DNA from: Acidobacteriota bacterium
GTDB taxonomy: Bacteria > Acidobacteriota > Blastocatellia > HR10
Assembly (NCBI GenBank): GCA_030550025.1
Contig: JAUQQC010000001.1
Span: 124,001-188,000, forward strand
Direction: 5' to 3'
DNA length: 64,000 bases
Shown: one piece after another, positions 7,830 to 26,844 of the stretch
Numbering within the stretch: position 1 is the first letter of the stretch
Layout: every line of letters begins with the position of its first letter
Notes under the pieces: model-generated
What the model was told of the DNA's origin: nothing
Database searches by the model: none
What the model saw: the letters and a program-made list of their open reading frames with translations, nothing else
Program-made: the position numbers and the translations under genes

Positions 7830-7856
7830 GGTTGCATCCTGCAACGGGATGCAACC
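7830..7856. promoter_or_regulatory. Candidate upstream activator site (dyad) for sigma-54 promoter
   Basis: GGTTGCATCC and GGATGCAACC form a perfect 10-bp inverted repeat with a 7-bp spacer that contains a third TGCAA half-site. The dyad centre is about 110 bp upstream of the -24 element at 7953, the usual place for enhancer-binding-protein sites. A second perfect hairpin (CTCCGGCG/CGCCGGAG) lies at 7866-7884, then an AT-richer stretch that could allow DNA bending. The remainder of the 345-bp gap from 7654 shows no gene. Confidence 0.6.
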
Positions 7857-7952
7857 GCGCGCAACCTCCGGCGCCGCGCCGGAGATCCGGTAAAAGTTTG
7901 AGTTTTCGTCACTTATTTGAAATCGGGCAGGCCTCGGAGCGATGGCATACCG

Positions 7953-7968
7953 TTTGCTTCAATAACTA
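7953..7968 (+). promoter_or_regulatory. Sigma-54 (-24/-12) promoter of the molybdoenzyme cluster
   Basis: TGGCAT, five bases, then TTGCT matches the sigma-54 consensus TGGCAC-N5-TTGCA with exact spacing. The conserved GG and GC doublets are at 7954-7955 and 7966-7967. Transcription would start near 7979, about 20 nt before the GTG start at 7999, leaving room for the GAGGAGG ribosome-binding site. Confidence 0.75.
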
Positions 7969-9834: not shown

Positions 9835-9850
9835 GCGCAGGAGGGGGGAT

Positions 9851-12800: not shown

Positions 12801-13351
12801 CCCTCGGCATCGAAGACGGCGATTACGTCTGGATCGATGGCGATCCCGAGGATCGCCCCTATCGCGGATGGCGAGCCGGGACCGAAGCGTACAAGCTCTC
12901 GCGTTGCCTGCTCCGGGCGCGCTATTATTACGGGATTCCGCCTCGAATTGCGCGCTCTTGGTTCCACATGTACATGGCGACTTACGGCTCGGTCGAAGGC
13001 CATGAGAAGAATCCCGACCATCTGGCCCGGAATCCGCGCACTGGTTATCAGGCGATGTTTCGCTATGGGGGACATCAATCGGCGACGCGCGCGTGGTTGC
13101 GCCCGACGCTGATGACCGACAGCCTCGTGCGCAAGGACGTCTTCGGGCAGACGATCGGCAAAGGCTTCGCTCCCGACATCCATTGCACTGTCGGCGCGCC
13201 CAAGGAATCGTTCGTCCGAATCACGAAGGCCGAAGATGGTGGTCCGGAGAAGGAGCGCCTCTGGCGGCCGGCGCGATTGGGGCTGCGTCCAACTTACGAG
13301 AGCGAGGCGATGCGTCGGTTTCTCAAAGGCGAGTTCGTGAGGAAGCGATGA
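9851..13351 (+). CDS. Type II DMSO-reductase-family molybdoenzyme alpha subunit, NxrA/NarG-like
   Basis: A 1166-residue bis-MGD catalytic subunit. A Tat signal ([15 protein letters not shown], residues 19-33) indicates export to the periplasm. The N-terminal [4Fe-4S] site reads C81-x3-D85-x3-C89 with C128/C129 downstream, so Asp stands where NarG has Cys and Cys where NarG has His. HTDLPPGHP (residues 286-294) carries the presumed molybdenum-ligating Asp288. [20 protein letters not shown] matches the NarG/NxrA core. The length is close to Nitrospira-type NxrA. Nitrite, nitrate, chlorate, selenate or hydrocarbon substrates are all found in this family; the direction of catalysis cannot be read. 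The start follows AGGAGGGGG. Confidence 0.88.
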
Positions 13352-13432
13352 GAGGCGTGTCATTTCATGAAGAGCTGAAGGTTCGCCTCGCCGCATGGTC
13401 GTGTAGTGGGGCGGCATGGAAAGGAGGAAGGT

Positions 13433-14566
13433 ATGGCGAACGTCTATAACTGGCAGCTCGGACGCGACATGTTCTATCCCTATGAGGCGCCCAGGCCCCG
13501 ACGGCAGTTCGCTGCCGTCTTCGACACGAACAAATGCATCGCCTGTCAGACATGCACCATCGCCTGCAAGAACGCATGGACCTCAGGGCAGGGGCAGGAG
13601 TATATGTTCTGGAACAACGTCGAGACCAAGCCCTGGGGCTTCTACCCGCTCGGTTGGGACGTGCGGCTTCTGGAAAAGCTCGGCGTGCAGGAATGGGATG
13701 GCGAGGTCTATCGGGGCAGGACGATCTTCGAAGCGGCTCCTCCGGGCGAAGTTGCGCTGGGCATCATGCCCGAGCGAGAGGACTGGTCATATCCGAACAT
13801 CGGCGAGGACGAGGTGAGCGCGCCCGTGAAGCAAGGAGAGTACCTTCGCCTCCCGCACCAGCCGTGGATGTTCTACTTGCAGCGCATTTGCAATCACTGC
13901 ACGTATCCGGCGTGCCTGGCCGGTTGCCCGCGCAAGGCCATCTACAAGCGGCCGGAGGACGGCATCGTGCTCGTGGATCAGATTCGCTGCCGCGGCTACC
14001 AGGAATGCATCCGCGCCTGCCCCTACAAAAAGGTGATGTTCAACGAGTACCTGGGCAAGACGCAGAAGTGCATCGGCTGCTATCCGAAGGTCGAACAGGG
14101 CCTGCAACCAGAGTGTGTAGTCAATTGCATCGGCAAGATCCGACTCATGGGCTTCGTGAGCACGCCGGATCGAGCGCGCGAGGACAACCCGATCGACTAC
14201 TTGGTGCACATTCGCAAGATCGCTTTGCCCCTTTATCCACAATTTGGGACTGAGCCGAACGTCTACTATATCCCTCCGGTCAATGTCCCGACCAGTTTCA
14301 CGACGATGCTTTTTGGGCCGCGCGCCGAAGAGGCGGTGGAGACATACCGGAAAGCGGCACAGGAAGGCGACCAGACGCTCATCGGGCTTCTGATGCTTTT
14401 CGGGAGCACGCCCTTCATCATCCACCGCTTCAAGGTCAAGGACGGCTTCGCCTACGGGTACAACGAGCAGAGGGTGGAGTTGGTGAAGGTCCCGATCAAA
14501 GAACCCATTCACATTCGGCCCTTCTATGACCGTGAACGGAACGTCTATCGTTTCAGCATCACCTGA
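13433..14566 (+). CDS. Iron-sulfur beta subunit, NxrB/NarH-like
   Basis: A 377-residue four-cluster ferredoxin subunit. The cysteine sets are C35-C38-C41-C45, C153-C156-C161-C165, C186/Y189/C192/C196 and C213-C216-C228-C232. Y189 replaces a Cys, predicting one [3Fe-4S] cluster as in NarH (Trp there). The N terminus (VYNWQLGRDMFYPYE) and the segments WNNVETKP and CNHCTYPACLAGCPRKAIY strongly recall Nitrospira/anammox NxrB. It has no signal peptide and should be co-exported with alpha by Tat. The start at 13433 is chosen over 13406 because AGGAGG lies 5-10 bases upstream. Confidence 0.9.
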   Translation: MANVYNWQLGRDMFYPYEAPRPRRQFAAVFDTNKCIACQTCTIACKNAWTSGQGQEYMFWNNVETKPWGFYPLGWDVRLLEKLGVQEWDGEVYRGRTIFEAAPPGEVALGIMPEREDWSYPNIGEDEVSAPVKQGEYLRLPHQPWMFYLQRICNHCTYPACLAGCPRKAIYKRPEDGIVLVDQIRCRGYQECIRACPYKKVMFNEYLGKTQKCIGCYPKVEQGLQPECVVNCIGKIRLMGFVSTPDRAREDNPIDYLVHIRKIALPLYPQFGTEPNVYYIPPVNVPTSFTTMLFGPRAEEAVETYRKAAQEGDQTLIGLLMLFGSTPFIIHRFKVKDGFAYGYNEQRVELVKVPIKEPIHIRPFYDRERNVYRFSIT

Positions 14567-15365
14567 GGCGGGCGGCGCCTCGGCGCGAGGAGGCTTGTAC
14601 AAGGTCTTCTCGCTGGCCTTCCGCTATCCGTCACTGGAGATCGTGGCGTTCTTCGGCGATCCGGAATTGCCGGAGGCGCTCGCCCAACTCCCCGCGCAGG
14701 AGGAAGGAGCGTTGGTCAGCGAACTGGCGGCCTATCTTCGTTCGTCCGCATTTCGAGAAGATATCGCGCGAGTCGAGAGCGCCTATCATGCGCTCTTTCA
14801 TCTGGAAGGCGGCGTGCCGCTCTACGAATCCGCCTACCGGGGCGCGCACGAGTTCCAATGGGCGGAGACGTTGGCCGACGTGAACGGATTTTATCGCGCC
14901 TTCGGATTGGAGCTGGTCGGCGAGCGTCCCGATCATTTGAGCGCGGAGTTGGAATTCATGTATGTGCTCGCGCTCAAGGAGGTGTGCGCGCGTTTTGAGG
15001 CGGACGGGAAGGCATCGCGCGAGCATCTGCAGATCACCTGGGAGGCCGAGCGCGCCTTCCTGCGCGATCACCTCGCCGTTTGGGTTCCGGCGTTCGCGCG
15101 CGCGCTGCGCCGTCGGATGGCAAAGGGGGGGAGATTTTACAAACGCATGAGCGCGTGGCTCGATCGGTTTCTGCAAGGCGAATGTGCGCGCTTCGGCGTG
15201 AGCCCATCGGCAACTGCCGTTTCGCCCACGCTGTCGGAAGCCGAAGAAGAGTTGGCGTGTCCCGTTTCGGCGGCCAGCGGCGGAGCTGTCGCGGATCGAA
15301 GTTCCGCGTGGGGCGATGGGCTTGGCCGATGGGAGATCCCTGAAGAGGGGGAGGAGGAGCGATGA
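14526..15365 (+). CDS. TorD/NarJ-family molybdoenzyme assembly chaperone
   Basis: A 279-residue cytoplasmic chaperone. LYKVFSLAFRYPSLEIV near the N terminus and YHALFHLEGGVPLYESAYRG followed by LSAELEFMYVLALKE are characteristic of TorD/DmsD/NarJ-type helical proteins that bind the Tat signal and guide cofactor insertion. It overlaps the beta-subunit gene by 41 bp and ends in a 4-bp ATGA overlap with the gamma gene, so it is coupled on both sides. The last ~50 residues are low-complexity. The A-B-D-C gene order is that of serABDC, ddhABDC and clrABDC clusters. Confidence 0.85.
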   Translation: MTVNGTSIVSASPEAGGASARGGLYKVFSLAFRYPSLEIVAFFGDPELPEALAQLPAQEEGALVSELAAYLRSSAFREDIARVESAYHALFHLEGGVPLYESAYRGAHEFQWAETLADVNGFYRAFGLELVGERPDHLSAELEFMYVLALKEVCARFEADGKASREHLQITWEAERAFLRDHLAVWVPAFARALRRRMAKGGRFYKRMSAWLDRFLQGECARFGVSPSATAVSPTLSEAEEELACPVSAASGGAVADRSSAWGDGLGRWEIPEEGEEER

Positions 15366-16249
15366 GGACGATCGTCATCATTGGACTCATCGGGCTTGTC
15401 GTGAGCCTGTTCACGGTCGGCTCCTACTATGCGCTCTTTCGCTATCGTACGTTCCCGCCGGCCGCCGACCAGCCGGTGGAGACGCTCGACGTGCCATATA
15501 TGGAGCGAAACGTCGAGCTGAACGAGCGAGGAGCGGAGGATCCGGTCTGGCAGCAAGTGCCCGGCAAAACCCTCGTGCTCACACCTCAGGTGACGGCCAT
15601 TCCGTGGGGGAAGGCGAGCGTGCCAGAGGTCACCGTCGCCGCGTTTCACAACGGCGAGCGCATCTTCTTCCGCCTCCACTGGCGAGACGCCACGGAGAAT
15701 CGCGAGGTCGGACCAGATACGTTCACCGATGCGTGCGCCGTTATGTTACCGCTTGTGGAGGAGCCGCAGCCGAACACGATCATGATGGGATTCCTGGAAG
15801 GTGCGAATATTTGGGCATGGAAGGCTGCGCGCGACGCGCAGGTCTGGGGGAGGGAGCGCGCGACGGCGCCGGCCCCGCCCGAACGTCCGTACACGGATTA
15901 CTATTACCCGCTTGAAGAGCGCGAGGTCTTTCCGATCGCGAGGGAATCGGTCGCGTCGGCTGTCGAGGATCTCATCGCACGGGGAGTGGGGACACTCACG
16001 CCGCGGGCGCATCAGCGCGTCCAGGGACGTGGCTTTTGGAAGGAAGGGACGTGGACGGTGGTCCTCACACGTGCGTTGGCCACTCACGAGGTGGGGGAGG
16101 CGACGTTGCCAGTGGGGAAGACGCGCGCTGTCGCCTTCGCCGTATGGGATGGTGCGAAAGGAGATCGCGGCGCGCGCAAATCCATCACCGAGTGGGTGCG
16201 GCTGCGGCTGTGGCCGATCGAGATCCCGGCTGGCGCGGCGGGGAAATAA
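15362..16249 (+). CDS. Heme-b-binding gamma subunit, ethylbenzene-dehydrogenase-like
   Basis: A 295-residue protein with an N-terminal hydrophobic helix (IVIIGLIGLVVSLFTVGSYYAL) followed by a periplasmic beta-rich domain of the EB_dh (EbdC/SerC/ClrC-like) type. PEVTVAAFHNGERIFFRLHWRD and the C-terminal KSITEWVRLRLWPIEI are typical strands. Such subunits bind one heme b through Met and Lys and relay electrons between the beta subunit and a periplasmic carrier. The uncleaved-looking helix suggests a membrane anchor instead of a soluble subunit. No NarI-type cytochrome b gene is present. Confidence 0.75.
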   Translation: MRTIVIIGLIGLVVSLFTVGSYYALFRYRTFPPAADQPVETLDVPYMERNVELNERGAEDPVWQQVPGKTLVLTPQVTAIPWGKASVPEVTVAAFHNGERIFFRLHWRDATENREVGPDTFTDACAVMLPLVEEPQPNTIMMGFLEGANIWAWKAARDAQVWGRERATAPAPPERPYTDYYYPLEEREVFPIARESVASAVEDLIARGVGTLTPRAHQRVQGRGFWKEGTWTVVLTRALATHEVGEATLPVGKTRAVAFAVWDGAKGDRGARKSITEWVRLRLWPIEIPAGAAGK

Positions 16250-16276
16250 CGCGAGGGAGGAGAAAGGAGGGAGCTT

Positions 16277-16747
16277 ATGATCCGAACGCTGAAGCGTCTG
16301 GGGCTGACGCTCCTCGGGGCAGGAGCGCTCCTCTTCCTCACGTCGGTCGTGCTCGCCTGGTGGCCGACGCGCGGTGAGGAGCGCGCCATCACGATCGTCG
16401 CGCGGCGCTTCCAGTACATGCCGAACATCGTGCGCGTGCGTCGTGGCGATACCGTCACCATTCGCCTCATGAGCGAGGACGTGCACCACGGATTCTATCT
16501 GGACGGCTATGAGGTACAGACGAGCGCACTGCCCGGTCAGGATGGCGTCGTGCGCTTCGTGGCCGATAAGACGGGGAAGTTTGCCTTCCGGTGTTCGGTC
16601 ACCTGTGGCGCGTTCCATCCCTACATGATCGGATACCTCAAGGTCGAACCGGACTATCGGTTTCTGGGGGCGACGGGCGCTGTGCTCGCGCTCTTTGGCG
16701 CTGCTTTCGTAGCGGTGAGCACGCGCAGCGCGTCGGCGGGATCGTGA
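16277..16747 (+). CDS. Membrane-anchored CuA-type cupredoxin, Cox2-like
   Basis: A 156-residue protein with an N-terminal TM helix (residues 8-29), a cupredoxin domain and a C-terminal hydrophobic helix (about 122-146). The metal loop C106-S-V-T-C110-G-A-F-H114-P-Y-M117 is the full CxxxCxxxHxxM CuA pattern, and H70/H71 supplies the upstream His. In Cox2 the residue at the V position is Glu, but it binds through its backbone. No oxidase subunit I is nearby, so this looks like a stand-alone dinuclear copper electron carrier for the molybdoenzyme. Confidence 0.82.
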   Translation: MIRTLKRLGLTLLGAGALLFLTSVVLAWWPTRGEERAITIVARRFQYMPNIVRVRRGDTVTIRLMSEDVHHGFYLDGYEVQTSALPGQDGVVRFVADKTGKFAFRCSVTCGAFHPYMIGYLKVEPDYRFLGATGAVLALFGAAFVAVSTRSASAGS

Positions 16748-16777
16748 GCGTCACGTGCGATCTGAGAGGAGGAGGGA

Positions 16778-17275
16778 ATGGCTATGAAGCGTTCGCTCGC
16801 CGAGCTCTCGCCACAAGAAGTCCTGACCGTCGCCATCTGGATCGAGGAACGGAATGCTCGCATCTATGAGAACTACGCGGAGATGTTCGAATGGTATGAA
16901 CCGGATGCGGCGCGCGCATTTCGGGAGATGGCGGAGGAAGAACGCGAGCACGGCCGTCGCTTGGCCGCGCTGTATGCCGGACGGTATGGGGAAGCGGCGT
17001 GCGAGGTGACGGACGCCGACATTCAGGAGCTGGTCGAAGTGCCTGTCGTCGAGGATGGCGAGGCGTTGATCTACGATCGCGCATCGCGGCGTCAGGCGTT
17101 CGACGTCGGCGTGCAGGCCGAGCGCCGCGCCCGCGCGTTCTATGCGGAATTGGTGGAGCGCACGGCGGATCCCGCGCTGCGCGCGCTCTTTGACGAGTTG
17201 GCCCGCGTCGAATCCGAACACGAAGCCTTCTTCGTGCGAAAACTCGCCGAGGTGGACCCTTCGGAGAACGCGTGA
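16778..17275 (+). CDS. Ferritin-like/rubrerythrin-type di-iron protein
   Basis: A 165-residue four-helix-bundle protein. It carries two ExxH motifs (E55-R-E-H58 and E145-S-E-H148) and Glu residues in helices 1 and 3 (IEERNARIYE, QAERRARAF), a complete carboxylate-bridged di-iron set. It lacks the C-terminal rubredoxin domain of classical rubrerythrins. A role in peroxide, oxygen or nitric-oxide handling, or in iron storage near the enzyme, is possible. It sits between the two cupredoxin-type genes in the same operon, with GAGAGGAGGAGG upstream of the start. Confidence 0.75.
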   Translation: MAMKRSLAELSPQEVLTVAIWIEERNARIYENYAEMFEWYEPDAARAFREMAEEEREHGRRLAALYAGRYGEAACEVTDADIQELVEVPVVEDGEALIYDRASRRQAFDVGVQAERRARAFYAELVERTADPALRALFDELARVESEHEAFFVRKLAEVDPSENA

Positions 17276-17333
17276 GCGCATCGGAGGGGTTCCGCCATAG
17301 GACGAGGGCTTCGCCGATGAGGAGGGAGCGAGT

Positions 17334-18758
17334 ATGCGCGATGGATTGGTGTTGGGACTGATTCCGGAGACGTGGCGCTTTGAGCTGACGCAGTTCCCAT
17401 GGGTCCGGCGCCTCCTCAAGAGTCGCTGGATGCCGCTTGGGCTCATCCTCTTCAACGTCTTCCTGTTCACCGTCATCCTCATGGCGGGATTCTTCGGCGG
17501 TTTGACCTCGCCGGGCAACTATAACTTCGGCATCATGATCGTGTGGATCCTCTGGTGGGTGCTCCTGATGACGGTGCTTGTGCCCGTGCTCTCGCGCTTC
17601 TGGTGCACGATGTGTCCGCTTCCCTTCTTGGGCGAATGGCTGCAGCGGCTGCGATTGTTCGGCGTCCGGTACGAGAGGGGGCGGAATCTTTATTTCGGCT
17701 TGAACAAGCGATGGCCCAAATCGCTCTCGAACATGTGGCTCATGAATATCCTCTTTCTGGCAACGACCTTCGCTTCGGGCTTTTTCACCGTACGGCCGGC
17801 GGCGACGTTCGTACTCTTGGCGGCGATCATCGCCCTCTCGGTCGTGCTCTCGCTCATTTATCGCGCGCGGACGTTCTGCTTGTACGTCTGTCCGGTGAGC
17901 GGCTTCCAGGGACTCTATTCGAATTTCGCCCTGACGGAGGTGCGGGTGAAGGACCCGGAGATCTGTGCCAGACACAAGACGAAAGGATGCGTCGTGGGTA
18001 ACGAACGCGGGTATGGCTGTCCGTGGCTCTTGCTGCCTTATGCCTTTCGGCGGAACACCTATTGCGGGATGTGCTTCGAATGCTTGAAGACCTGCGAGTA
18101 CGATAACATGGCCGTGAATCTGCGGCCTCCGGGGGTAGATCTGCTCGTGGACGAGAAGCGCGGTTTGGACGAAGCGTATAAGGCCCTCATCATGCTGGGG
18201 ATCGCCGTCGTCTTCTTCGTGACGTTCCAGGGGCCTTGGGGGACGCTCAAGGATTGGGCGAACGCGGCGACGCTCTCCGGCTATCTGGCCTTCATCGGGT
18301 TACATGCGAGCTGGAATCTGATCGTTCTGCCCGCGATCTTCCTGCTCTTCACATGGGTGGCGCGACGCGCAGCACGTCAGGCCGTTCCGCTCAAGAAGGT
18401 CTACGTGAACTTCTCCTATGCCACGGTGCCGCTTGGCTTGGCGGCTTGGATCGCCTTCAGCCTCGGCATCATCTTGCCCAATGGCAGCTACCTCCTGCAC
18501 GTTCTCTCCGATCCGTTCGCTTGGGGATGGGACCTGTTCGGGACGGCGCATTTTCCCTGGACGCCGGTGCTCACCGGGATCATGCCGTATCTGATGATCC
18601 TGACGTTGCTCGTCGGCTTGCTCTTCTCGATCGATATCGCCCTCAAGATTGCGCGGCAGACATTTGTTGAGCCGGAGGCCGCCGTGCGCGACGCCTTCCC
18701 GATTTTGGGCTTCCTGGGTGCGACGACGTTTGGCCTGATGTGGCTCTTCGTTGGATAG
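17334..18758 (+). CDS. NapH/NosR-like polytopic membrane Fe-S protein
   Basis: A 474-residue integral membrane protein with about ten hydrophobic segments. Two CP motifs follow transmembrane helices (C91TMCP and C182LYVCP), as in NapH/NosR/CcoG proteins. A cytoplasmic loop has C211, C219, C229 and a ferredoxin motif C244-x2-C247-x2-C250-x3-C254. Such proteins move electrons from the quinol pool or from cytoplasmic donors to periplasmic reductases. It lies directly before the second CuA gene, suggesting a quinone/CuA/enzyme relay. The C-terminal third (about residues 280-474) holds further helices beyond the NapH core. Confidence 0.82.
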   Translation: MRDGLVLGLIPETWRFELTQFPWVRRLLKSRWMPLGLILFNVFLFTVILMAGFFGGLTSPGNYNFGIMIVWILWWVLLMTVLVPVLSRFWCTMCPLPFLGEWLQRLRLFGVRYERGRNLYFGLNKRWPKSLSNMWLMNILFLATTFASGFFTVRPAATFVLLAAIIALSVVLSLIYRARTFCLYVCPVSGFQGLYSNFALTEVRVKDPEICARHKTKGCVVGNERGYGCPWLLLPYAFRRNTYCGMCFECLKTCEYDNMAVNLRPPGVDLLVDEKRGLDEAYKALIMLGIAVVFFVTFQGPWGTLKDWANAATLSGYLAFIGLHASWNLIVLPAIFLLFTWVARRAARQAVPLKKVYVNFSYATVPLGLAAWIAFSLGIILPNGSYLLHVLSDPFAWGWDLFGTAHFPWTPVLTGIMPYLMILTLLVGLLFSIDIALKIARQTFVEPEAAVRDAFPILGFLGATTFGLMWLFVG

Positions 18759-18772
18759 GGAGGGGGAAGACG

Positions 18773-19189
18773 ATGCGAGGGCAGGAGCTTTTGGCCGTGT
18801 TGTTGGCTCTATTGGCGACGGTCGGGACGATCACCGTCGCTCTCTGGTATGATCGCAGTCGCGATGCCGGACGGGAGGTCATCGAGCTACTGGCCATTCA
18901 ACCGAAGAACGGGAATTGGCAGCCGAGCGAGATCCGGCTGGAGCGCGGCCGACCCGTGCGCTTGAAGATTCGGAACGTGGAGACGGTCTCGCACGGCTTC
19001 GCACTGCCGGATTTCGGGATCGGCATCGCCGAGATCAAGCCCGGTGAAGTTCACGTGGTGGACTTCACGCCGGATCGCACGGGCATCTTCCCATTCTATT
19101 GCACAGTGTGGTGCTCGAATGAGCACATGGCGATGGCCGGACGCGTGATCGTCACCGAGAGCGTGGCGCGCGCGTCCTCGAATCGGTGA
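18773..19189 (+). CDS. Membrane-anchored CuA-type cupredoxin, NosZ-like site
   Basis: A 138-residue protein with one N-terminal TM helix (residues 5-25) and a cupredoxin domain. The loop C110-T-V-W-C114-S-N-E-H118-M-A-M121 is a CxxxCxxxHxxM CuA pattern closest to that of nitrous-oxide reductase, with H74 (SHGF) as the upstream ligand. Neither a NosZ catalytic domain nor oxidase is attached. The start at 18773 is chosen because GGGAGGGGGAAG precedes it and because it lies just after the NapH-like stop. It is the last structural gene of the cluster. Confidence 0.82.
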   Translation: MRGQELLAVLLALLATVGTITVALWYDRSRDAGREVIELLAIQPKNGNWQPSEIRLERGRPVRLKIRNVETVSHGFALPDFGIGIAEIKPGEVHVVDFTPDRTGIFPFYCTVWCSNEHMAMAGRVIVTESVARASSNR

Positions 19190-19217: not shown

Positions 19218-19247
19218 TTGCTCGCCCCCTTGCGTGCGGGATACAAT
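19218..19247 (+). promoter_or_regulatory. Sigma-70-type promoter of the bEBP gene
   Basis: TTGCTC, 18 bp, TACAAT, with the expected start near 19255, some 22 nt before the GTG start. This would allow the activator to be made independently of the sigma-54 operon it probably controls. Confidence 0.5.
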
Positions 19248-19276: not shown

Positions 19277-20197
19277 GTGGAGGTCGTCATCGGATCCTTG
19301 GAGAAGATCTTTCGCGATGCCGAGATCGCCGCGCGAAGCTCCGAGGCCGTGCTCATCCTGGGTGAGACCGGAGTGGGGAAAGAGGTCCTCGCCCGATACA
19401 TTCACGAGCGATCGCGCCGGCACGCTCGCCCTTTCCTCCCCATCAACTGCGCGGCCATCCCCGCGCATCTGCTTGAGAGCGAGCTGTTCGGGTACGAGCG
19501 AGGCGCCTTCACCGGAGCGACGCAGAGTCGAAAGGGATTGCTGGAGGAGGCCGAAGGGGGGACCGTCTTTCTCGATGAGGTCGTAGAGATCCCCCTGGAC
19601 GCCCAAGCGAAGCTACTGCGCGCCATCGAGGCGAAACAGATCCGCCCTCTGGGCAGCACGCGCTACCGTCCGATTGATGTGCGCTTCATCGCGGCGACGA
19701 ATGCCGACATCAAGCGGAAGGTCGAGCGCGGCGAATTTCGGCGCGATCTCTACTATCGCCTCTCCATCTTCGTCTACGTGATCCCCCCGATCCGCGAGCG
19801 TCCGCAGGACATTCCGGCACTGGTCCACCACTTCCTCGCCGAAGCGGGCATCTCGGTTCGCCTCACTCCGGCCACGTGGGAATTACTGTTCTGCTATCCC
19901 TGGCCGGGGAATATCCGAGAATTGAAGAACGCGCTCACCTGCGCGCTGGCTCGCATGGATGGTGAGGAGCTGCGGCCCGAGCATCTGCCGGACGTCATCC
20001 TCGCGCGTTGTCCGAGACCGGATGTTCTTCGGGAGACCGATTTGCGAAAGAAGCTCGCGTGCTTCGAAGCGCAACTTTTGGCCGACGCGTTGCAACGCTC
20101 TTCCGACCTTTCCGAGGTGGCCCGGGAGTTAGGGATCGGCCTGCGCACGCTCTATCGGAAGCTGAAGCGCTACGGCTTGACCAAGCCCGGCTCGTGA
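19277..20197 (+). CDS. Sigma-54-dependent activator (bEBP) lacking a sensory domain
   Basis: A 306-residue AAA+ enhancer-binding protein. Walker A is GETGVGKE (29-36), the sigma-54-contact loop is GAFTGA (76-81), Walker B is GGTVFLDE (94-101), and RFIAATN, RRDLYYRL and WPGNIRELKNA follow. A Fis-type helix-turn-helix ends the protein (SEVARELGIGLRTLYRKLKRYGL). There is no N-terminal receiver, GAF or PAS domain, as in PspF, so activity must be set by a partner protein or by abundance. GTG start with GGGAGG upstream. Sigma-54 promoters lie both upstream of the molybdoenzyme cluster and downstream of this gene. Confidence 0.92.
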   Translation: MEVVIGSLEKIFRDAEIAARSSEAVLILGETGVGKEVLARYIHERSRRHARPFLPINCAAIPAHLLESELFGYERGAFTGATQSRKGLLEEAEGGTVFLDEVVEIPLDAQAKLLRAIEAKQIRPLGSTRYRPIDVRFIAATNADIKRKVERGEFRRDLYYRLSIFVYVIPPIRERPQDIPALVHHFLAEAGISVRLTPATWELLFCYPWPGNIRELKNALTCALARMDGEELRPEHLPDVILARCPRPDVLRETDLRKKLACFEAQLLADALQRSSDLSEVARELGIGLRTLYRKLKRYGLTKPGS

Positions 20198-20254
20198 CAT
20201 CGAAGTCCTCGCTCTGCGCGGGGAAGACCGACGGCTCCTGTGTGCCAACGGTGG

Positions 20255-20389
20255 CACCGGGCGAATCCTTCCCGGTGTCTCTTCTGTCATGTGGGAAGTC
20301 GTTCTCCCACCGGGCTTCTTCGCCTGGAGGAGAGCGTTCGACTGGGCGCGCTGTGCCAAATGCGGCAAAGGGTGGGGAATTCATTCTCG
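20255..20389. repeat. Three imperfect dyads in the 353-bp gap before the benzoyl-CoA reductase operon
   Basis: Three GGG-GAA-N3/4-TTC-type dyads occur: CACCGGG-N9-CCCGGTG enclosing GAATCCTTC (20255-20277), GTGGGAAGTCGTTCTCCCAC (20291-20310), and GGGGAATTCATTCTCG (20374-20389). They lie about 90-220 bp upstream of the sigma-54 promoter at 20478 and could be activator sites. The first could equally be the terminator of the bEBP gene (followed by TCTCTTCT). No gene was seen in 20198-20508. Confidence 0.4.
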
Positions 20390-20477: not shown

Positions 20478-20493
20478 TGGCACGCGGCTTGCA
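20478..20493 (+). promoter_or_regulatory. Sigma-54 (-24/-12) promoter of the benzoyl-CoA reductase operon
   Basis: TGGCAC, five bases (GCGGC), TTGCA is an exact match to the sigma-54 consensus, with GG at 20479-20480 and GC at 20491-20492. The expected transcription start is near 20505, just upstream of the GNAT gene that heads the operon. Confidence 0.82.
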
Positions 20494-20550
20494 AGGAATA
20501 TCTCAGTGATGGTGGAGCGAACAAGCGCACGAAAGCGGGCACGGGCCATC

Positions 20551-20991
20551 ATGAGCATGCTCATCCGAGCGCCGCGCGCCGAGGACCTGGAGGCGATCAT
20601 CGCTTTGGATACGCACATAACAGGCGAAGCGAAGCCTGAGTTCTGGCGACATAAGCTCGGATTAGGGGGTGCGCTCCCAACGGGGAGTCGACCGCTCGTT
20701 CGCGTCGCTGAGGTCAGCGGGCGGATCATCGGCGTCTTGGTCGGAGAGGTTCGGAGCTGGGAGTTTCATCTCCCACCGACGGGTTGGATCACGGTCCTCA
20801 TGGTGGATCCGGCCTATCGCCGTCAGGGTATCGGGCGGCGGCTTCTGGCCGAAGCTCTCGAATACTTTCGAGAGCACGGCTTGCGGAGCGTTCGCACGAT
20901 GGTTGGATGGTCGGACGGGGATGTGCTCTCGTTCTTCACAGCGATGGGCTTCGATCGCGGCCCCTTCATCGAGCTGGAGAAGAGTCTATGA
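20551..20991 (+). CDS. GNAT-family N-acetyltransferase
   Basis: A 146-residue RimI-like acetyltransferase. The acetyl-CoA-binding loop is RRQGIGRRLLAEAL after the strand WITVLMVDPAY, and the domain is complete (DVLSFFTAMGFDRGPFIELEKSL at the end). The frame is open upstream; ATG 20551 is preferred over ATG 20509 because the predicted sigma-54 transcript starts near 20505, which would leave no leader for the earlier codon. It is the first gene of the aromatic operon. Acetylation of CoA ligases or other pathway enzymes is one possible role, by analogy with benzoate degraders. Confidence 0.8.
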   Translation: MSMLIRAPRAEDLEAIIALDTHITGEAKPEFWRHKLGLGGALPTGSRPLVRVAEVSGRIIGVLVGEVRSWEFHLPPTGWITVLMVDPAYRRQGIGRRLLAEALEYFREHGLRSVRTMVGWSDGDVLSFFTAMGFDRGPFIELEKSL

Positions 20992-21036
20992 GGGCTTCGC
21001 GTTGAACGGAGGGCTGAGGCGGGAGGAGGGAGGAAG

Positions 21037-21930
21037 ATGACCGACGGGGTGAAGGCCATTGATTGCATGTACTATGTCGCGACCCGCGCATTCATTGACC
21101 GCTGGAATCGCGCCAAGGAAGGGGAACTCATCTGCCGCATGGAGCGCGCCATTGGCGGCCTCCCCGCCTATGACTCCATCGAGGAGATGATCCGGCAGAT
21201 GGACGAAGCGGGCGTCGAGCGCGTCTTCATCGCGCAGTGCAAGATGTGGTCCTATTGGCGCAAGTGGATGTACATGGACACGCAGCTTGAAGAGGTCCTA
21301 CAGTACACGCAACGCTACCCGGATCGCTTTGTGGGCCTAGCCGGTTACAATCCGTATCGCATCACCGAGAGCTTGCGCGAGATCGAGATCGCCGTGAAGC
21401 AGTACGGGTTCAAGGGCGTCTACGTCCACATCTACGGATTCGATATTCCCCTTCACGATCGCAAGATGTATCCGCTCTACGCCAAATGCGTGGAGCTGGA
21501 TGTGCCCGTCTCCCTCCAGGTCGGGCACGTGCTCGAAGCGATGCCGAGCGACTGCGGGCGGCCGATCTATTTGGATCGCGTCGCGTGCGATTTCCCCGAG
21601 TTGAAGATCATCGGCGCGCACACGGGCTGGCCGTGGGTCGAGGAGCTGATCTCGGTCTGCTACAAGTGGGAGAACGTATGGTTGGGGATAGACGCCTGGA
21701 TGCCAAAGTATCTCGCGCCGGCGATCGTCCAGTTCATCAACAGCCGGCTCGGCCAGGATCGGTGCCTGTGGGGGACGAACGGCTTGCCATGGAAGGAGAA
21801 TTTGCGGCAATTGGACGAGTTGGGGGTGAGGCCGGAAGTGAAACGCAAGCTCCTGCGAGAGAACGCCCTCAAGCTCTTCAAGCTCGAAGAGACGCCCTCG
21901 AGCGCTTCGTTGGCGCAAGGTGCGGCTTAA
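21037..21930 (+). CDS. Amidohydrolase-fold (ACMSD-like) protein with altered metal site
   Basis: A 297-residue TIM-barrel protein of the amidohydrolase-2 (ACMSD/resorcylate decarboxylase) type. FKGVYVHIYG, LDVPVSLQVGH and FPELKIIGAHTGWPWVEEL are family segments. The N-terminal HxH metal motif is replaced (AIDCMYYV), and the usual FGSDxPW Asp is Asn (WGTNGLPW), so a classical divalent metal site is unlikely. A hydrolytic or decarboxylating role on a ring-derived intermediate is a guess from context. A strong GGAGGAGGGAGG ribosome-binding site precedes the start. Confidence 0.75.
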   Translation: MTDGVKAIDCMYYVATRAFIDRWNRAKEGELICRMERAIGGLPAYDSIEEMIRQMDEAGVERVFIAQCKMWSYWRKWMYMDTQLEEVLQYTQRYPDRFVGLAGYNPYRITESLREIEIAVKQYGFKGVYVHIYGFDIPLHDRKMYPLYAKCVELDVPVSLQVGHVLEAMPSDCGRPIYLDRVACDFPELKIIGAHTGWPWVEELISVCYKWENVWLGIDAWMPKYLAPAIVQFINSRLGQDRCLWGTNGLPWKENLRQLDELGVRPEVKRKLLRENALKLFKLEETPSSASLAQGAA

Positions 21931-21942
21931 GAGGGGGAGGTC

Positions 21943-22716
21943 ATGAACGGACAAGAGTTCACGGGAAAAGTGGTGCTCGTCACGGGAGGGGCGCGAGGGA
22001 TCGGTCGCGCCATCGTACGCGCGTTTGCGGAAGCGGGCGCCAACGTCGCTCTCGCCGACATTCGGCAGGAGGAGGCCGAAGTGGCGGCGCGCGAGATTCG
22101 TGAGGCGACCGGGCGGGCGCTTCTCGTCGTGCCGATGGATGTGACTTCGCTGGAATCCGTGCAGCGCGGATGCGCGCAGGTGTTTGAGCAACTCGGAAAG
22201 ATTGACGTCTTGGTGAACAATGCGGGGTGGGACCGAATCGTCCCCTTCCTGCAAACGACGCCGGAGTTGTGGGAGAAGGTCATCGCGATCAACTATCGCG
22301 GCGTCATCCACACGTGCTACGCCGTCTTGCCACATATGGTCGCGCGGAGGCAGGGGAGCATCGTGAACATCAGCTCGGATGCCGCGCGCGTCGGCTCGCT
22401 CGGCGAGGCGATTTATGCCGGAGCCAAGGCGGCCGTCATCGCCTTCTCCAAGACGCTCGCCCGCGAGCACGCGCGCGATCAGATTCGCGTGAATGTCGTC
22501 TGTCCGGGGCCGACCGAGACGCCGCTTGTCGAGGAGATGCGGCAGGAGGAGTTCGCGCGGAAGATCCTTGGCGCGATGGCCGGATACATTCCGTTGAAGC
22601 GCCTGGGGCAGCCGGAGGATGTCGCGCCTCTGGTCGTCTTCCTCGCATCGGAGGCCGCGCGCTATATCACCGGGCAGGTGATCAGTGTCAGCGGCGGATT
22701 GACGATGGTCGGATGA
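21943..22716 (+). CDS. Short-chain dehydrogenase, BadH-like
   Basis: A 257-residue classical SDR. It has TGGARGIG at 14-21 for NAD(P) binding, NNAG at 92-95, catalytic S144/S145 region (NISSDAAR) and Y158-x3-K162. The stretch NNAGWDRIVPFLQTTPELW resembles 2-hydroxycyclohexane-carboxyl-CoA dehydrogenases of anaerobic benzoate degradation. The adjacent benzoyl-CoA reductase genes support oxidation of a hydroxyacyl-CoA ring-derived intermediate. 3-Oxoacyl reductase activity is the alternative. It is 12 bp downstream of the amidohydrolase gene with GAGGGGGAGG as ribosome-binding site. Confidence 0.82.
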   Translation: MNGQEFTGKVVLVTGGARGIGRAIVRAFAEAGANVALADIRQEEAEVAAREIREATGRALLVVPMDVTSLESVQRGCAQVFEQLGKIDVLVNNAGWDRIVPFLQTTPELWEKVIAINYRGVIHTCYAVLPHMVARRQGSIVNISSDAARVGSLGEAIYAGAKAAVIAFSKTLAREHARDQIRVNVVCPGPTETPLVEEMRQEEFARKILGAMAGYIPLKRLGQPEDVAPLVVFLASEAARYITGQVISVSGGLTMVG

Positions 22717-22741
22717 ACCTCGCGCTTCGAGGGAGAGCCCG

Positions 22742-23890
22742 ATGGACGAACTACTCCGCCGATGCGAAGAGATCGTTCGGGATGTGGGCTTCGCGACCGT
22801 TCGTCGGTGGAAGGCGGAGCATCCAGATGGGAAGGCGATCGCCTATTTCCCGGTCTACGCGCCGGTGGAGGTGATCGCGGCCGCCGGGATGCTCCCGGTG
22901 GGCTTACATGGAGCGGGGGATCGGTTGGAACTTCAACATGCCGATGCTCGATTCGGCTCTTTCATCTGTTCGATCGTGAAGACGACGCTGGAGTTGGGGT
23001 TGACGGGGCGCCTTGCTCCGTTCGACGGCATGCTCTTCTCCTCGATCTGCGATTCGGCGCGCAACCTCTGCTTCGTCTTGAAGCGAAACTTCCCGCAGCT
23101 CTACGTGGATTTCCTCCATCTGCCGCACAACGCGGCATCGGCCTCCAGTCGCGAATTCCTCCGCAGCGAATACGCGCGCCTGAAGGCGGCGCTGGAGCAG
23201 TTGGCCGGGCGGGAGGTCAAGGACGAACGCCTTCGGGAGATGATCGTGCGGTATAACGAGAATCGGCGCTTGATCCGCGGGCTTTACGAGTGGCGGGCGG
23301 AGGAGCCGCATCGGATTCGCGCGTGGGAGCTGTATGTGTTGGTCCGAGCCGGAAATTTTCTACCCGTTGAGGAACACACGGCCTTGCTGCGGGAAGCATA
23401 CGATGGGTTCGCGCGGCGTCAGGCGAAACCCCGCGATTCGATCCGCGTCCTCGTCGAGAGCGCGTTTTGTGAGCAGCCGCCCCTTGGGCTGATCCGACTC
23501 CTGGAAGAGGCCGGTTGCTACCTCGTGGAGGATGATTTCACGCTGGGGCGACGGTGGTTCACTGCGGACATCCCGACGGACGGCGATCCTCTTCAGGCGC
23601 TCGCTGAGAGCTATCTCGATCGCTCCGTCACCTCCTCGGTGCGTCATGACTGGCGACGCCCTCGATTCCGCGTGCTCATCGAGAAAGTGCGCGCGCGTCG
23701 GGCGCAGGCGGTGATCTTCCTCATCGCTAAGTTCTGCGAGCCCGCCTACTTCGATTACGTCCTCTTCAAGCGAGAGCTGGAGCGCGAGGGCATTCCGCAT
23801 CTGCTCCTCGAATTCGAGGAGAAGATGTATACGTTCGAGCGCTTGCAGACCGAGGTGGAGACGTTCGTCGAGGCCTTGCTCTTCGAGTGA
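22742..23890 (+). CDS. Benzoyl-CoA reductase subunit C-like (HgdB-family dehydratase component)
   Basis: A 382-residue member of the 2-hydroxyacyl-CoA dehydratase/benzoyl-CoA reductase family. FICSIVKTTLELGL with C76 and SSICDSARNLC with C103/C110 are the usual cluster-ligand regions of the BcrC/BzdN/BadD type. With the next gene it forms the two-subunit active-site module that receives low-potential electrons and carries out Birch-like ring reduction. Dehydratases of 2-hydroxyacyl-CoA use the same fold, but the two linked ASKHA subunits favour the reductase. Confidence 0.82.
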   Translation: MDELLRRCEEIVRDVGFATVRRWKAEHPDGKAIAYFPVYAPVEVIAAAGMLPVGLHGAGDRLELQHADARFGSFICSIVKTTLELGLTGRLAPFDGMLFSSICDSARNLCFVLKRNFPQLYVDFLHLPHNAASASSREFLRSEYARLKAALEQLAGREVKDERLREMIVRYNENRRLIRGLYEWRAEEPHRIRAWELYVLVRAGNFLPVEEHTALLREAYDGFARRQAKPRDSIRVLVESAFCEQPPLGLIRLLEEAGCYLVEDDFTLGRRWFTADIPTDGDPLQALAESYLDRSVTSSVRHDWRRPRFRVLIEKVRARRAQAVIFLIAKFCEPAYFDYVLFKRELEREGIPHLLLEFEEKMYTFERLQTEVETFVEALLFE

Positions 23891-23897
23891 GGGGGGA

Positions 23898-25151
23898 ATG
23901 ATGACCGAGTATCGGGGATGGATTCATCAGCGGCAGAAGGAACTCATGCGGCAGTGGTACGCGCGCTTGGACGAATCGGCGCGAACGGGATGGCCGCCGG
24001 CCATCTGTTTGATGATCTCCGGCAATTGCGTGGAGGTGCTCGAAGCTTTCGGGATCGTGCCCCTTTATCCGGAGGTGAACGCCTTGCAGTTGGCCATCCG
24101 GCATCAAGCTTTGGGGCCGATTCTCGCCGCCGAGGAGTTTGGCTATGCGACGGACAATTGCGCTTACGTGAAGGCGGACATCGGCGCTTATCTGATCGGG
24201 GTGACCCCGACCGGAGGGAAACTTCCGCGCCCGGCTCTTGTCCTTTGCAACTTCGTCGGCTGCAACACCTACATCAAATGGTTCGAGCATGTGGCCACGT
24301 TCTTGGAGGCTCCCCTTTACGTCCTCGACGTCCCGTTCTTGCGGGACGAGGAACCGAGTCCGGCTGACGTCGCCTATGTCGTCGCACAGCTGCGAGAGTT
24401 GGTGCAGCGAATTGAAGAGATCACCGGTTTGCGCTTCGATATGGATCGGTTTCGAGAGGCCGTGCGGTGCTCGCAACGGGTCGAGGAGCTGTGGTCGCGC
24501 ATTAAGTATCTGGCGCAGCGAGTCCCTTCGCCGTTTGATGCCTATTTCGATGCCATCACGCTCATGGGGCCGCTCTACGTCCATCGCGCGAGGCCGGAAG
24601 GGGTGGAATTCTTCCGACTCGCGCTCGCGGAGCTGGAGGCAAAGGCCGCGCGCGGCGAAGGCGTCTATGACCGAGAGCGCTTCCGCGTAGTGATCGAGGG
24701 GCCACCCCCCTATCCCTACTTCCGTGCCTTCCGCGATATGTTCGCGCGCTGGCGTGCCACGGCCGTCGCCTCCACATATTCGACCGTCGGCGGGATTTGG
24801 GAGTTCGGATTCCGGCACGATCCGGAGAAGCCGTTCGAGACGGTTGCCCTCCACATGCTCGCGCACAATCTCACGAACCGGAACTACCTCCAGCGATACG
24901 ATCAAATTCGACGCTACGTCCAGCAGTGGCGAGCCGACGGTGTGATCATCCACTTCGTCAAGAGCTGTCGGCTCTTCTCGGCCGGTCAGGGTGATATGCG
25001 CGACTATTTCACGAAGGTGCTCGGCGTGCCCACGCTCTATATCGAGTCGGACCTGGAAGACCCGCGGTATTTCGCCGAGGCGCAAATTCGGAATCGGGTG
25101 GACGCGTTCTTCGAAGCGCTGGAACGCCATAAGCGCGCGAGCGCCGTGTGA
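23898..25151 (+). CDS. Benzoyl-CoA reductase subunit B-like
   Basis: A 417-residue BcrB/BzdO/BadE-like subunit. Conserved cysteines lie in SGNCVEVLEAFG (C44), NCAYVKADIGAYLIG (C88) and LCNFVGCNTYIKWFE (C117, C122). The C-terminal IHFVKSCRLFSAGQGDMRDYF and PTLYIESDLEDPRYF segments match the family. It pairs with the C-like subunit encoded 7 bp upstream. Two adjacent ATGs (23898, 23901) follow GAGGGGGG. Expected substrate is benzoyl-CoA or a substituted analogue in an anaerobic pathway. Confidence 0.82.
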   Translation: MMTEYRGWIHQRQKELMRQWYARLDESARTGWPPAICLMISGNCVEVLEAFGIVPLYPEVNALQLAIRHQALGPILAAEEFGYATDNCAYVKADIGAYLIGVTPTGGKLPRPALVLCNFVGCNTYIKWFEHVATFLEAPLYVLDVPFLRDEEPSPADVAYVVAQLRELVQRIEEITGLRFDMDRFREAVRCSQRVEELWSRIKYLAQRVPSPFDAYFDAITLMGPLYVHRARPEGVEFFRLALAELEAKAARGEGVYDRERFRVVIEGPPPYPYFRAFRDMFARWRATAVASTYSTVGGIWEFGFRHDPEKPFETVALHMLAHNLTNRNYLQRYDQIRRYVQQWRADGVIIHFVKSCRLFSAGQGDMRDYFTKVLGVPTLYIESDLEDPRYFAEAQIRNRVDAFFEALERHKRASAV

Positions 25152-25172
25152 TCTCCATCGAGGGAGGGCGAG

Positions 25173-25979
25173 ATGCGGTTGGCGGCTGGTGTGGATGTCG
25201 GTTCGACGCAGACGAAAGCGGTGATCCTCGTCGGGGATGGCAAGCCGCGCATCCTCGCGCGCGCGCTCGTGGATACGGGCGCTGATGTCCCGCGCGCGGC
25301 CGAGCGAGCGTTTCGCGCCGCTTGTCAGGAAGTCGGGCTCGATCCGCGCCAGATCGGAATGGTCGTCGGAACCGGCTATGGCCGATACCGAATCGCCTTC
25401 GGTCACGCGCAGGTGACCGAGATCAGCTGCCATGCGCGCGGGGCGCACTTCGTCTTCCCGCAGACGCGCACGGTGATCGACATCGGCGGGCAGGATGTCA
25501 AGGTGATTCGCGTCGGCCCGCAGGGCGAAGTCCGCGACTTCGTCATGAACGATAAATGCGCGGCCGGGACAGGACGCTTCCTCGCCAACGCGGCTGAGGT
25601 CCTCGGCTTGGAGCTTGAGGAGATCGGCCCGCTCTCGTTGCGGGCGACCGATCCGGTCAAGCTCACGACCGTGTGCACGGTCTTCGTCGAGTCGGACATC
25701 CTCTCCTATCTCGCTCACGGGCGACGTCCGGAGGATATCTTGTGTGGCGTGCATCTGGCGATTGCCCGGCGGACGGTGAGCCTGGCGCGGCGCATCCCGA
25801 TCGAGCCCGCGATCACGTTCACCGGCGGAGTCGCACGAAATGTCGGGATGGTGAAAGCGCTCGAGGAGGTCTTGGAGCTCCCCATTCAGGTGAGCCCGGA
25901 GTCCCATTTCATGGGCGCTCTCGGCGCCGCGCTCTTCGCATTGGAGAGGCTGGGTCTCAAGAGCGAATCCTCCTCGTGA
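25173..25979 (+). CDS. Benzoyl-CoA reductase ATPase subunit (ASKHA/BcrAD family) 1
   Basis: A 268-residue ATPase of the BadF/BadG/BcrA/BcrD/HgdC family. GVDVGSTQTKAV is the phosphate-1 loop; CHARGAHF and VIDIGGQDVKVI are family strands. C129 (NDKCAAGTG) and C168 (TVCTVF) are the [4Fe-4S] ligands shared across the homodimeric or heterodimeric interface. FTGGVARNVGM is the adenosine motif. It couples ATP hydrolysis to electron activation. The short length is closer to Bzd-type subunits than to the larger Thauera BcrA. Confidence 0.85.
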   Translation: MRLAAGVDVGSTQTKAVILVGDGKPRILARALVDTGADVPRAAERAFRAACQEVGLDPRQIGMVVGTGYGRYRIAFGHAQVTEISCHARGAHFVFPQTRTVIDIGGQDVKVIRVGPQGEVRDFVMNDKCAAGTGRFLANAAEVLGLELEEIGPLSLRATDPVKLTTVCTVFVESDILSYLAHGRRPEDILCGVHLAIARRTVSLARRIPIEPAITFTGGVARNVGMVKALEEVLELPIQVSPESHFMGALGAALFALERLGLKSESSS

Positions 25980-25995
25980 ACGGGGAAAGAGGCTT

Positions 25996-26844
25996 ATGCC
26001 TTGCGTCGCTGGCATTGATGTGGGAACCGGATTCACAAAGGCCGTCCTCGTGGACGGTGAGTCGGAAGGCGAGAGCGGGCGAGTCGAATGGTCCACTCTC
26101 GGCCGAGGGATGGTGAAAACTGGGGCCTATTTGGAGGAAGCCGCCGAGCGCGCACTCGATCTGGCGCTGCGGGAAGCCGGGCGCGATCGGCGCGACATCG
26201 TCTATATCGCGACGACGGGATTTGGCCGCTACGCCGTCGGCTTTCGAGACGTTCAGATCACAGAGATCACCAGCGGCGCGCGCGGCGCCCGATGGTTCTT
26301 CCCTGAGGCGACGGCCGTGCTCGACATCGGGAATCAGTCCACGCGCGCCATCCGGTTGGACGCGCGCGGAAGAGTCAGCGCCTTCAAGATGAACGAGAAG
26401 TGCGCCGCCGGCTCGGGGAGTTTCCTCATGCGCGCGGCGAAGTACTTGCAGATCGAGGTGGAAGAGATCGGCGAGCTGTCGTTGCGCGCCACTTGTCCGC
26501 AGCCGATCAGCAGCGTTTGCGCCGTCTTGGCCGAGACCGAGATCATCAATCACGTGAGCGCCGGGGCGGCCATCGAGGACATCGTGCGCGGGATCCATAA
26601 CTCGCTCGCCGATCGCGCAGCCCTTTTGCTGCGGCGCGTCGGTGTCGGATCGGATGGGGTCCGATCGCCGCAACTCGTTTTCATCGGCGGCGTCGCTCGA
26701 CAGCGCGGTATGATCGCCGCGCTCGAAGAGCGCCTCAGCATGCCGGTGCGCGTCCCGCCTCAGTGTGAGTTCACGTGCGCATTAGGAGCGGCCTTGCTTG
26801 GCCTCCACCGATGGCGAAAACTTCGCTCGGAGTCATCGTCTTAA
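25996..26844 (+). CDS. Benzoyl-CoA reductase ATPase subunit (ASKHA/BcrAD family) 2
   Basis: A 282-residue paralogue of the preceding gene. GIDVGTGFTKAV, C136 (NEKCAAGSG) and C175 (SVCAVL) keep the nucleotide and cluster ligands. The DIGGQ motif is DIGNQ and the CHARGA motif is SGARGA, so the two subunits are distinct, as expected for a heterodimeric activator. Two different ASKHA subunits next to two dehydratase-family subunits is the benzoyl-CoA reductase arrangement. It is the last gene of the operon. Confidence 0.85.
   Translation: MPCVAGIDVGTGFTKAVLVDGESEGESGRVEWSTLGRGMVKTGAYLEEAAERALDLALREAGRDRRDIVYIATTGFGRYAVGFRDVQITEITSGARGARWFFPEATAVLDIGNQSTRAIRLDARGRVSAFKMNEKCAAGSGSFLMRAAKYLQIEVEEIGELSLRATCPQPISSVCAVLAETEIINHVSAGAAIEDIVRGIHNSLADRAALLLRRVGVGSDGVRSPQLVFIGGVARQRGMIAALEERLSMPVRVPPQCEFTCALGAALLGLHRWRKLRSESSS

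Follow-up and report, generated by a model that had tools for sequence, protein, structure and literature searches.

The site at positions 20478–20493 of the 64 kb window (the whole stretch of DNA analysed, from genome G000, which is 3.17 Mb long and 98.7 % complete) is very likely to be a working sigma-54 promoter of a single operon, 20509–26844, that is switched on by the sigma-54 activator (bEBP) encoded next to it. The argument draws on the promoter and on the dyads upstream of it with their spacing, on how these are conserved, on the order of the genes and on their phyletic linkage, all of which are read from the sequence (Table 1). The site, TGGCACGCGGCTTGCA on the + strand, has no mismatches to TGGCAC-N5-TTGCW, with the −24 GG and the −12 GC in that context, and the window holds no other exact match, with 0.035 matches per 64 kb expected from dinucleotide shuffling; in shuffled copies of the 353 bp intergenic region an exact + strand match appears at a frequency of 0.00015. 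Pattern searches, which were used for all genome-wide counts of sites and dyads, find 11 exact matches in G000, against about 1.7 expected by extrapolation from the shuffles of the 64 kb window, and RpoN is encoded in the genome (PF04552, 1.7e-55). The locus has named relatives in Bacterium HRbin10 and in a Blastocatellia MAG, which places the window in the Blastocatellia (Acidobacteriota) and not in Geobacter. A sequence-only reading had described this site as a near-perfect sigma-54 promoter with TGGCAC-N5-TTGCA as an exact consensus, and both statements are borne out by the exact match, the presence of RpoN and conservation in six genomes. At the level of sequence we regard the site as confirmed as a genuine sigma-54 promoter heading an operon of the aromatic-reduction type.

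Table 1. Promoters, dyads and genes of the two sigma-54 units and the activator gene (window positions)
Feature	Coordinates	Strand	Remarks
Dyad of respiratory operon, GTTGCATCCTGCAAC, GTTGCA-N3-TGCAAC	7831..7845	+	Only perfect copy in genome
Sigma-54 promoter of respiratory operon, TGGCATACCGTTTGCT	7943..7958	+	One mismatch; conserved in four genus members
Sigma-70-like promoter of activator gene, TTGCTC-N18-TACAAT	19218..19247	+	Conserved before all six orthologues
Sensor-less sigma-54 activator (bEBP)	19277..20197	+	AAA+ with GAFTGA, lid, Fis-type HTH
Dyad A, GTGCCAACGGTGGCAC, GTGCCA-N4-TGGCAC, putative activator site	20242..20257	+	Has a counterpart in each of the six orthologous regions
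Dyad B, degenerate weaker copy of A	20275..20290	+	Exactly 33 bp after A
Dyad C, GTGCCAAATGCGGCAA	20353..20368	+	Two mismatches
Sigma-54 promoter, TGGCACGCGGCTTGCA	20478..20493	+	Exact consensus; conserved in six genomes; predicted start ~20504
GNAT acetyltransferase, first operon gene	20509..20991	+	Pfam PF00583, 2.6e-14
Amidohydrolase-2 family protein	21037..21930	+	PF04909, 1.3e-36
SDR dehydrogenase, BadH-like	21943..22716	+	Best NCBIfam TIGR03206 benzo_BadH, 307.6 bits, below cut-off of 431
Class-I benzoyl-CoA-reductase-like subunit C	22742..23890	+	TIGR02263, 345 bits, cut-off 421; PDB 9g87 MbdN, 2.3e-83
Reductase-like subunit B	23898..25151	+	TIGR02260, 305 bits, below cut-off of 487
Reductase ATPase subunit A-like	25173..25979	+	PF01869; PDB 9gai MbdQ, 5.2e-96
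Reductase ATPase subunit D-like	25996..26844	+	PF01869; best equivalog TIGR02261, 192 bits, below cut-off

The operon begins 311 bp beyond the end of the bEBP gene. The leader from the predicted start to the ATG at 20509 is only about 5 nt long, without a Shine–Dalgarno sequence, and a second in-frame ATG lies further on in the GNAT gene, at 20551; because the N-terminal MxxR..RK stretch of the protein is conserved among orthologues from the ATG at 20509, we take this codon to be the start. Neighbouring genes are separated by short gaps of 8–45 bp, and the reductase genes start 2.2 kb 3′ of the promoter. The subunits have the class I architecture, with two HGD-D subunits (PF06050 twice) and two different BadF/BcrA-type ATPases (PF01869 twice), and 3-methylbenzoyl-CoA reductase is the closest solved relative of the C and A subunits according to the PDB matches. 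All four subunits lie below the cut-offs of the curated Bcr/Bad equivalogs (C 345 of 421 bits, B 305 of 487 bits, and the ATPases too), and we therefore name the operon benzoyl-CoA-reductase-like, a sequence-based designation; curated models for Oah, BadI and benzoate-CoA ligase gave nothing above cut-off in the G000 genome. The proposal that the site heads a benzoyl-CoA reductase operon serving aromatic-ring reduction thus stands in part: an operon of the aromatic-reduction type with a class-I-like subunit set does lie downstream, but its first gene encodes a GNAT protein and not a reductase subunit, and the curated cut-offs are not reached.

The circuit was compared in six genomes of three genera (G000, G001, G002, G004, G005 and G008), four of which are closely related genus members, with the independent evidence coming mainly from G005 (a sister genus) and G008 (another family). 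A sigma-54-type site with invariant GG and GC precedes the same GNAT gene in all six, with no mismatches in G000, G002 and G008, one in G001 and G004, and two in G005, the promoter of which is weak (CGGTACGACATTTGCA). Orthologues of the bEBP are found in just these six of 162 genomes of the class; a GNAT gene follows the bEBP gene in each, and the reductase is present in six of the six, as against 13 of 58 relatives overall. The order in G008 is bEBP, sigma-54 site, GNAT and then BcrC directly, and its reductase is more distant (BcrC 47 % and BcrB 36 % identical).

The G005 locus is divided between two contigs, of which C68 (L156, 10163–13455), carrying bEBP and GNAT, breaks off within coxA and C85 (L040), carrying the amidohydrolase, SDR, BcrC and BcrB, starts within coxA. 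When aligned to the G000 coxA the contig ends meet with a two-residue gap, and across the contig break the order is likely to be bEBP, GNAT, oxidase genes (coxB, coxA and further subunits), amidohydrolase, SDR and reductase. A close relative of this oxidase is encoded elsewhere in the G000 genome (coxA 82 %). An oxidase operon inside the G005 reductase operon could possibly provide a link to respiration by another route.

Dyads A and B start 236 and 203 bp 5′ of the sigma-54 site, and the perfect dyad GTGCCA-N4-TGGCAC occurs once in the 3.17 Mb genome, as dyad A. With the consensus taken from G000 first and counted in the other genomes afterwards, the six intergenic regions hold nine dyads with two or fewer mismatches, compared with 0.16 in shuffles, and none of 1000 shuffles reaches nine. 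Dyad A starts 235–238 bp upstream of the sigma-54 site in every genome but G008, where the distance is 250 bp, and the spacing from A to B is exactly 33 bp in all six. Over the six genomes an offset of +33 is far ahead of every other spacing: 53 of the 72 positions match, compared with a mean of 19.3 (sd 5.8), and when only G001, G002, G005 and G008 are taken the figure is 37 of 48; counterparts of dyad C are found in G002 (125 bp before the promoter) and G008 (139 bp). The sequence between the dyads and the promoter has diverged while the distances have stayed, as would be expected of a looping enhancer, and we regard the tandem conserved dyads as putative upstream activator sites.

The candidate activator matches Sigma54_activat (PF00158, 2.1e-65), with the AAA+ domain beginning at residue 7, and HTH_8 (1e-10), and the GAFTGA motif is present in all six orthologues. 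An N-terminal regulatory domain is absent from the protein and from its orthologues, including those of G005 and G008, which by sequence makes it a PspF-type (sensor-less) bEBP. A TTGNNN-N18-TA(C/G)AAT element lies 5′ of the gene at −59 to −97 in six of six genomes, with a chance of 0.0004 per shuffled 120 bp region, and because this sigma-70-like promoter is conserved the bEBP is probably expressed on its own and not solely by transcription that runs on from the preceding respiratory operon. The adjacent bEBP is very probably the activator of the reductase-like operon.

In the mechanism that we propose, the bEBP would be made from its own sigma-70-like promoter and would bind the tandem dyads A and B (20242–20290), 33 bp apart. 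Looping of the DNA over about 240 bp would then allow it to remodel the sigma-54 closed complex, presumably by ATP-driven opening, and transcription from about 20504 would run through GNAT, the amidohydrolase, the BadH-like SDR and the BcrCBAD-like reductase, with read-through to 26844. Since the bEBP has no sensor domain, its activity is probably restrained in trans, in the way that PspA restrains PspF, or governed by the amount of bEBP present. The co-regulated GNAT protein is a candidate maker of the signal molecule, by analogy with BadL of Rhodopseudomonas.

Several other explanations were weighed against this circuit. That 20478–20493 is a chance match to the consensus seems extremely improbable: if one mismatch is permitted, the genome holds no surplus of sites (79, compared with 106 for the pattern reversed), so that we give weight to exact or conserved sites only, but this one is exact, is conserved in six genomes and has dyads at fixed distances. 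Somewhat less remote, although still quite improbable, is a promoter that drives GNAT only, with the reductase genes using another. The bEBP–GNAT pair is kept in six of six genomes and the next genes in G005 are those of the cytochrome oxidase operon, as such an arrangement would have it, but the gaps within the operon are short, no terminator-like or sigma-70 promoter-like site was found between GNAT and the amidohydrolase gene (20991–21037), and in G008 BcrC comes directly after GNAT.

The remaining explanations involve the respiratory operon (7999–19189), which encodes a molybdoenzyme of DMSO-reductase type II, with two cupredoxins, a rubrerythrin-like protein and a 474-residue protein that weakly matches Fer4_5. 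The scores of the catalytic subunits fall far short of every curated equivalog. At its head (7999–9834) a single ORF encodes an N-terminal hemerythrin domain fused to an alginate-export-type porin barrel, and this fusion is kept in three other genus members. A second conserved promoter (7943–7958) heads the operon, so that two sigma-54 units do flank the activator gene, as had been proposed. It had been suggested further that the 19.3-kb bEBP alone controls both operons, coupling respiration to ring reduction. The conserved promoters on both operons, the position of the bEBP between them in the genus members and the terminal oxidase operon apparently inside the G005 reductase operon would all suit this idea, but it is very unlikely to be correct. 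The dyad of the respiratory operon, which lies 111–112 bp before the sigma-54 site in four genus members, differs from dyad A, each has one perfect copy in the genome, and no copy of the A-type dyad with two or fewer mismatches lies within 400 bp of the respiratory operon. Moreover, the bEBP tracks the reductase and not the molybdoenzyme, since the latter is found in 33 of 162 class genomes, of which only four have the bEBP and 29 lack it, and G005 and G008 have bEBP and reductase without molybdoenzyme. These different, genome-unique dyads and the distribution of the bEBP argue against one activator for both operons, and judging from the sequences the activator of the respiratory operon is probably a different protein; no further perfect copy of the respiratory dyad, and none near another bEBP, was found in the genome. 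We think a cascade less improbable than a single activator, though still unlikely: another activator would turn on the respiratory operon, read-through would raise the level of the bEBP, and the reductase operon would come on in turn. The bEBP gene is co-directional with the respiratory operon and lies 87 bp 3′ of its final gene, a terminator-like site was not found on the + strand, and a sensor-less activator could be governed by its level; on the other side is the sigma-70-like promoter of the bEBP gene, conserved in six of six genomes, the molybdoenzyme-free G005 and G008 among them.

The adjacent bEBP, as probable activator of the reductase-like operon, can be compared with several known systems. 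That sigma-54 governs the anaerobic degradation of aromatics, which the earlier reading noted for Geobacter, has been reported for Geobacteraceae (the bam genes with BamVW, and bss and hbs in Geotalea daltonii; PMC11497800), and the principle is therefore not new. There, as here, sigma-54 promoters stand at anaerobic aromatic operons with bEBP genes adjacent; however, BamVW is a two-component system whereas the activator described here is sensor-less, the bss and hbs regulators of Geotalea daltonii are opposite to their operons whereas this one is co-directional, and the setting here is a Blastocatellia genome whose reductase is of the ATP-dependent, class-I-like kind. PspF and HrpR/HrpS are bEBPs without a cis-regulatory domain that are controlled in trans (PMC7057263), and they share with the protein described here an AAA+ domain with GAFTGA and an HTH, with no N-terminal sensor, although the target here would be a catabolic operon. 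The bad cluster of R. palustris includes BadL (a GNAT), BadM and BadDEFG and is reported to be under the control of BadM, AadR and Fix; BadL acetylates aminobenzoates, and the products relieve repression by BadM (PMC6191541). A GNAT, a BadH-like SDR and a class-I-type reductase are clustered in both organisms, but here the GNAT gene leads a sigma-54 operon. The likeness of this GNAT to BadL lies in its fold (PF00583) and its place in a benzoyl-CoA-type cluster, and a BadL-type role is by that analogy a lead. The closest solved relative of the C and A subunits belongs to Azoarcus MbdONQP (PDB 9gai, 9g87), and control of mbd is ascribed to MbdR (PMC4424350), unlike the sigma-54 activator proposed here.

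Among 33 related reductase clusters drawn from several phyla, six have sigma-54 sites with no more than one mismatch at 20–250 bp before the first gene, compared with 0.19 expected, and 27 have no such promoter. Three of the six are orthologues among the six Blastocatellia genomes and the others (L059 at 6999, L067 at 4982 and L094 at 4756) have the site 45–82 bp before reductase clusters of other lineages; no bEBP gene was detected near these three in the locus sequence examined. Sigma-54 control of related clusters, as predicted from such sites, thus appears to be recurrent and not universal. The amidohydrolase-2 protein accompanies the reductase cluster almost without exception across phyla (L055–L105), mostly at about 70–92 % identity, and relatives of the GNAT adjoin the reductase cluster or the amidohydrolase in several phyla (L061, L062, L068, L072, L074, L081, L084 and L092). 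Besides the site at 20478–20493, G000 has ten exact sigma-54 sites, and we note that five of them lie just 5′ of plausible gene starts (L046–L054); their products, identified from translations read by eye, are NuoE/HoxE-like, a hemerythrin, an Fe-S oxidoreductase subunit, MreB-like and TonB-dependent-receptor-like, and several of these are redox genes.

We found no paper in the open-access literature on the reductase cluster in Blastocatellia, and within that literature four things are new: the lineage, an activator that is both sensor-less and co-directional, the arrangement of tandem enhancers, and an operon that begins with a GNAT gene. A broader and doubtful proposal is that in Acidobacteriota these parts make up a portable switch controlling oxygen-sensitive ring reduction, in which a sensor-less activator acts through dedicated tandem enhancers, a BadL-like acetyltransferase makes or removes the signal, and in the sister genus the switch has captured a terminal oxidase operon; if this were true, oxygen removal or respiration would share one transcript with ring reduction in that genus. 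The circuit itself is concrete, consisting of an activator, two putative enhancers at fixed spacing, a promoter and an operon, and it concerns a class-I-like reductase cluster that is widespread, occurs in Acidobacteriota and other phyla, and has apparently been little described. It supplies a candidate signal-maker in the GNAT protein, and it illustrates that enhancer dyads can separate neighbouring sigma-54 operons, instead of a single regulator being presumed.
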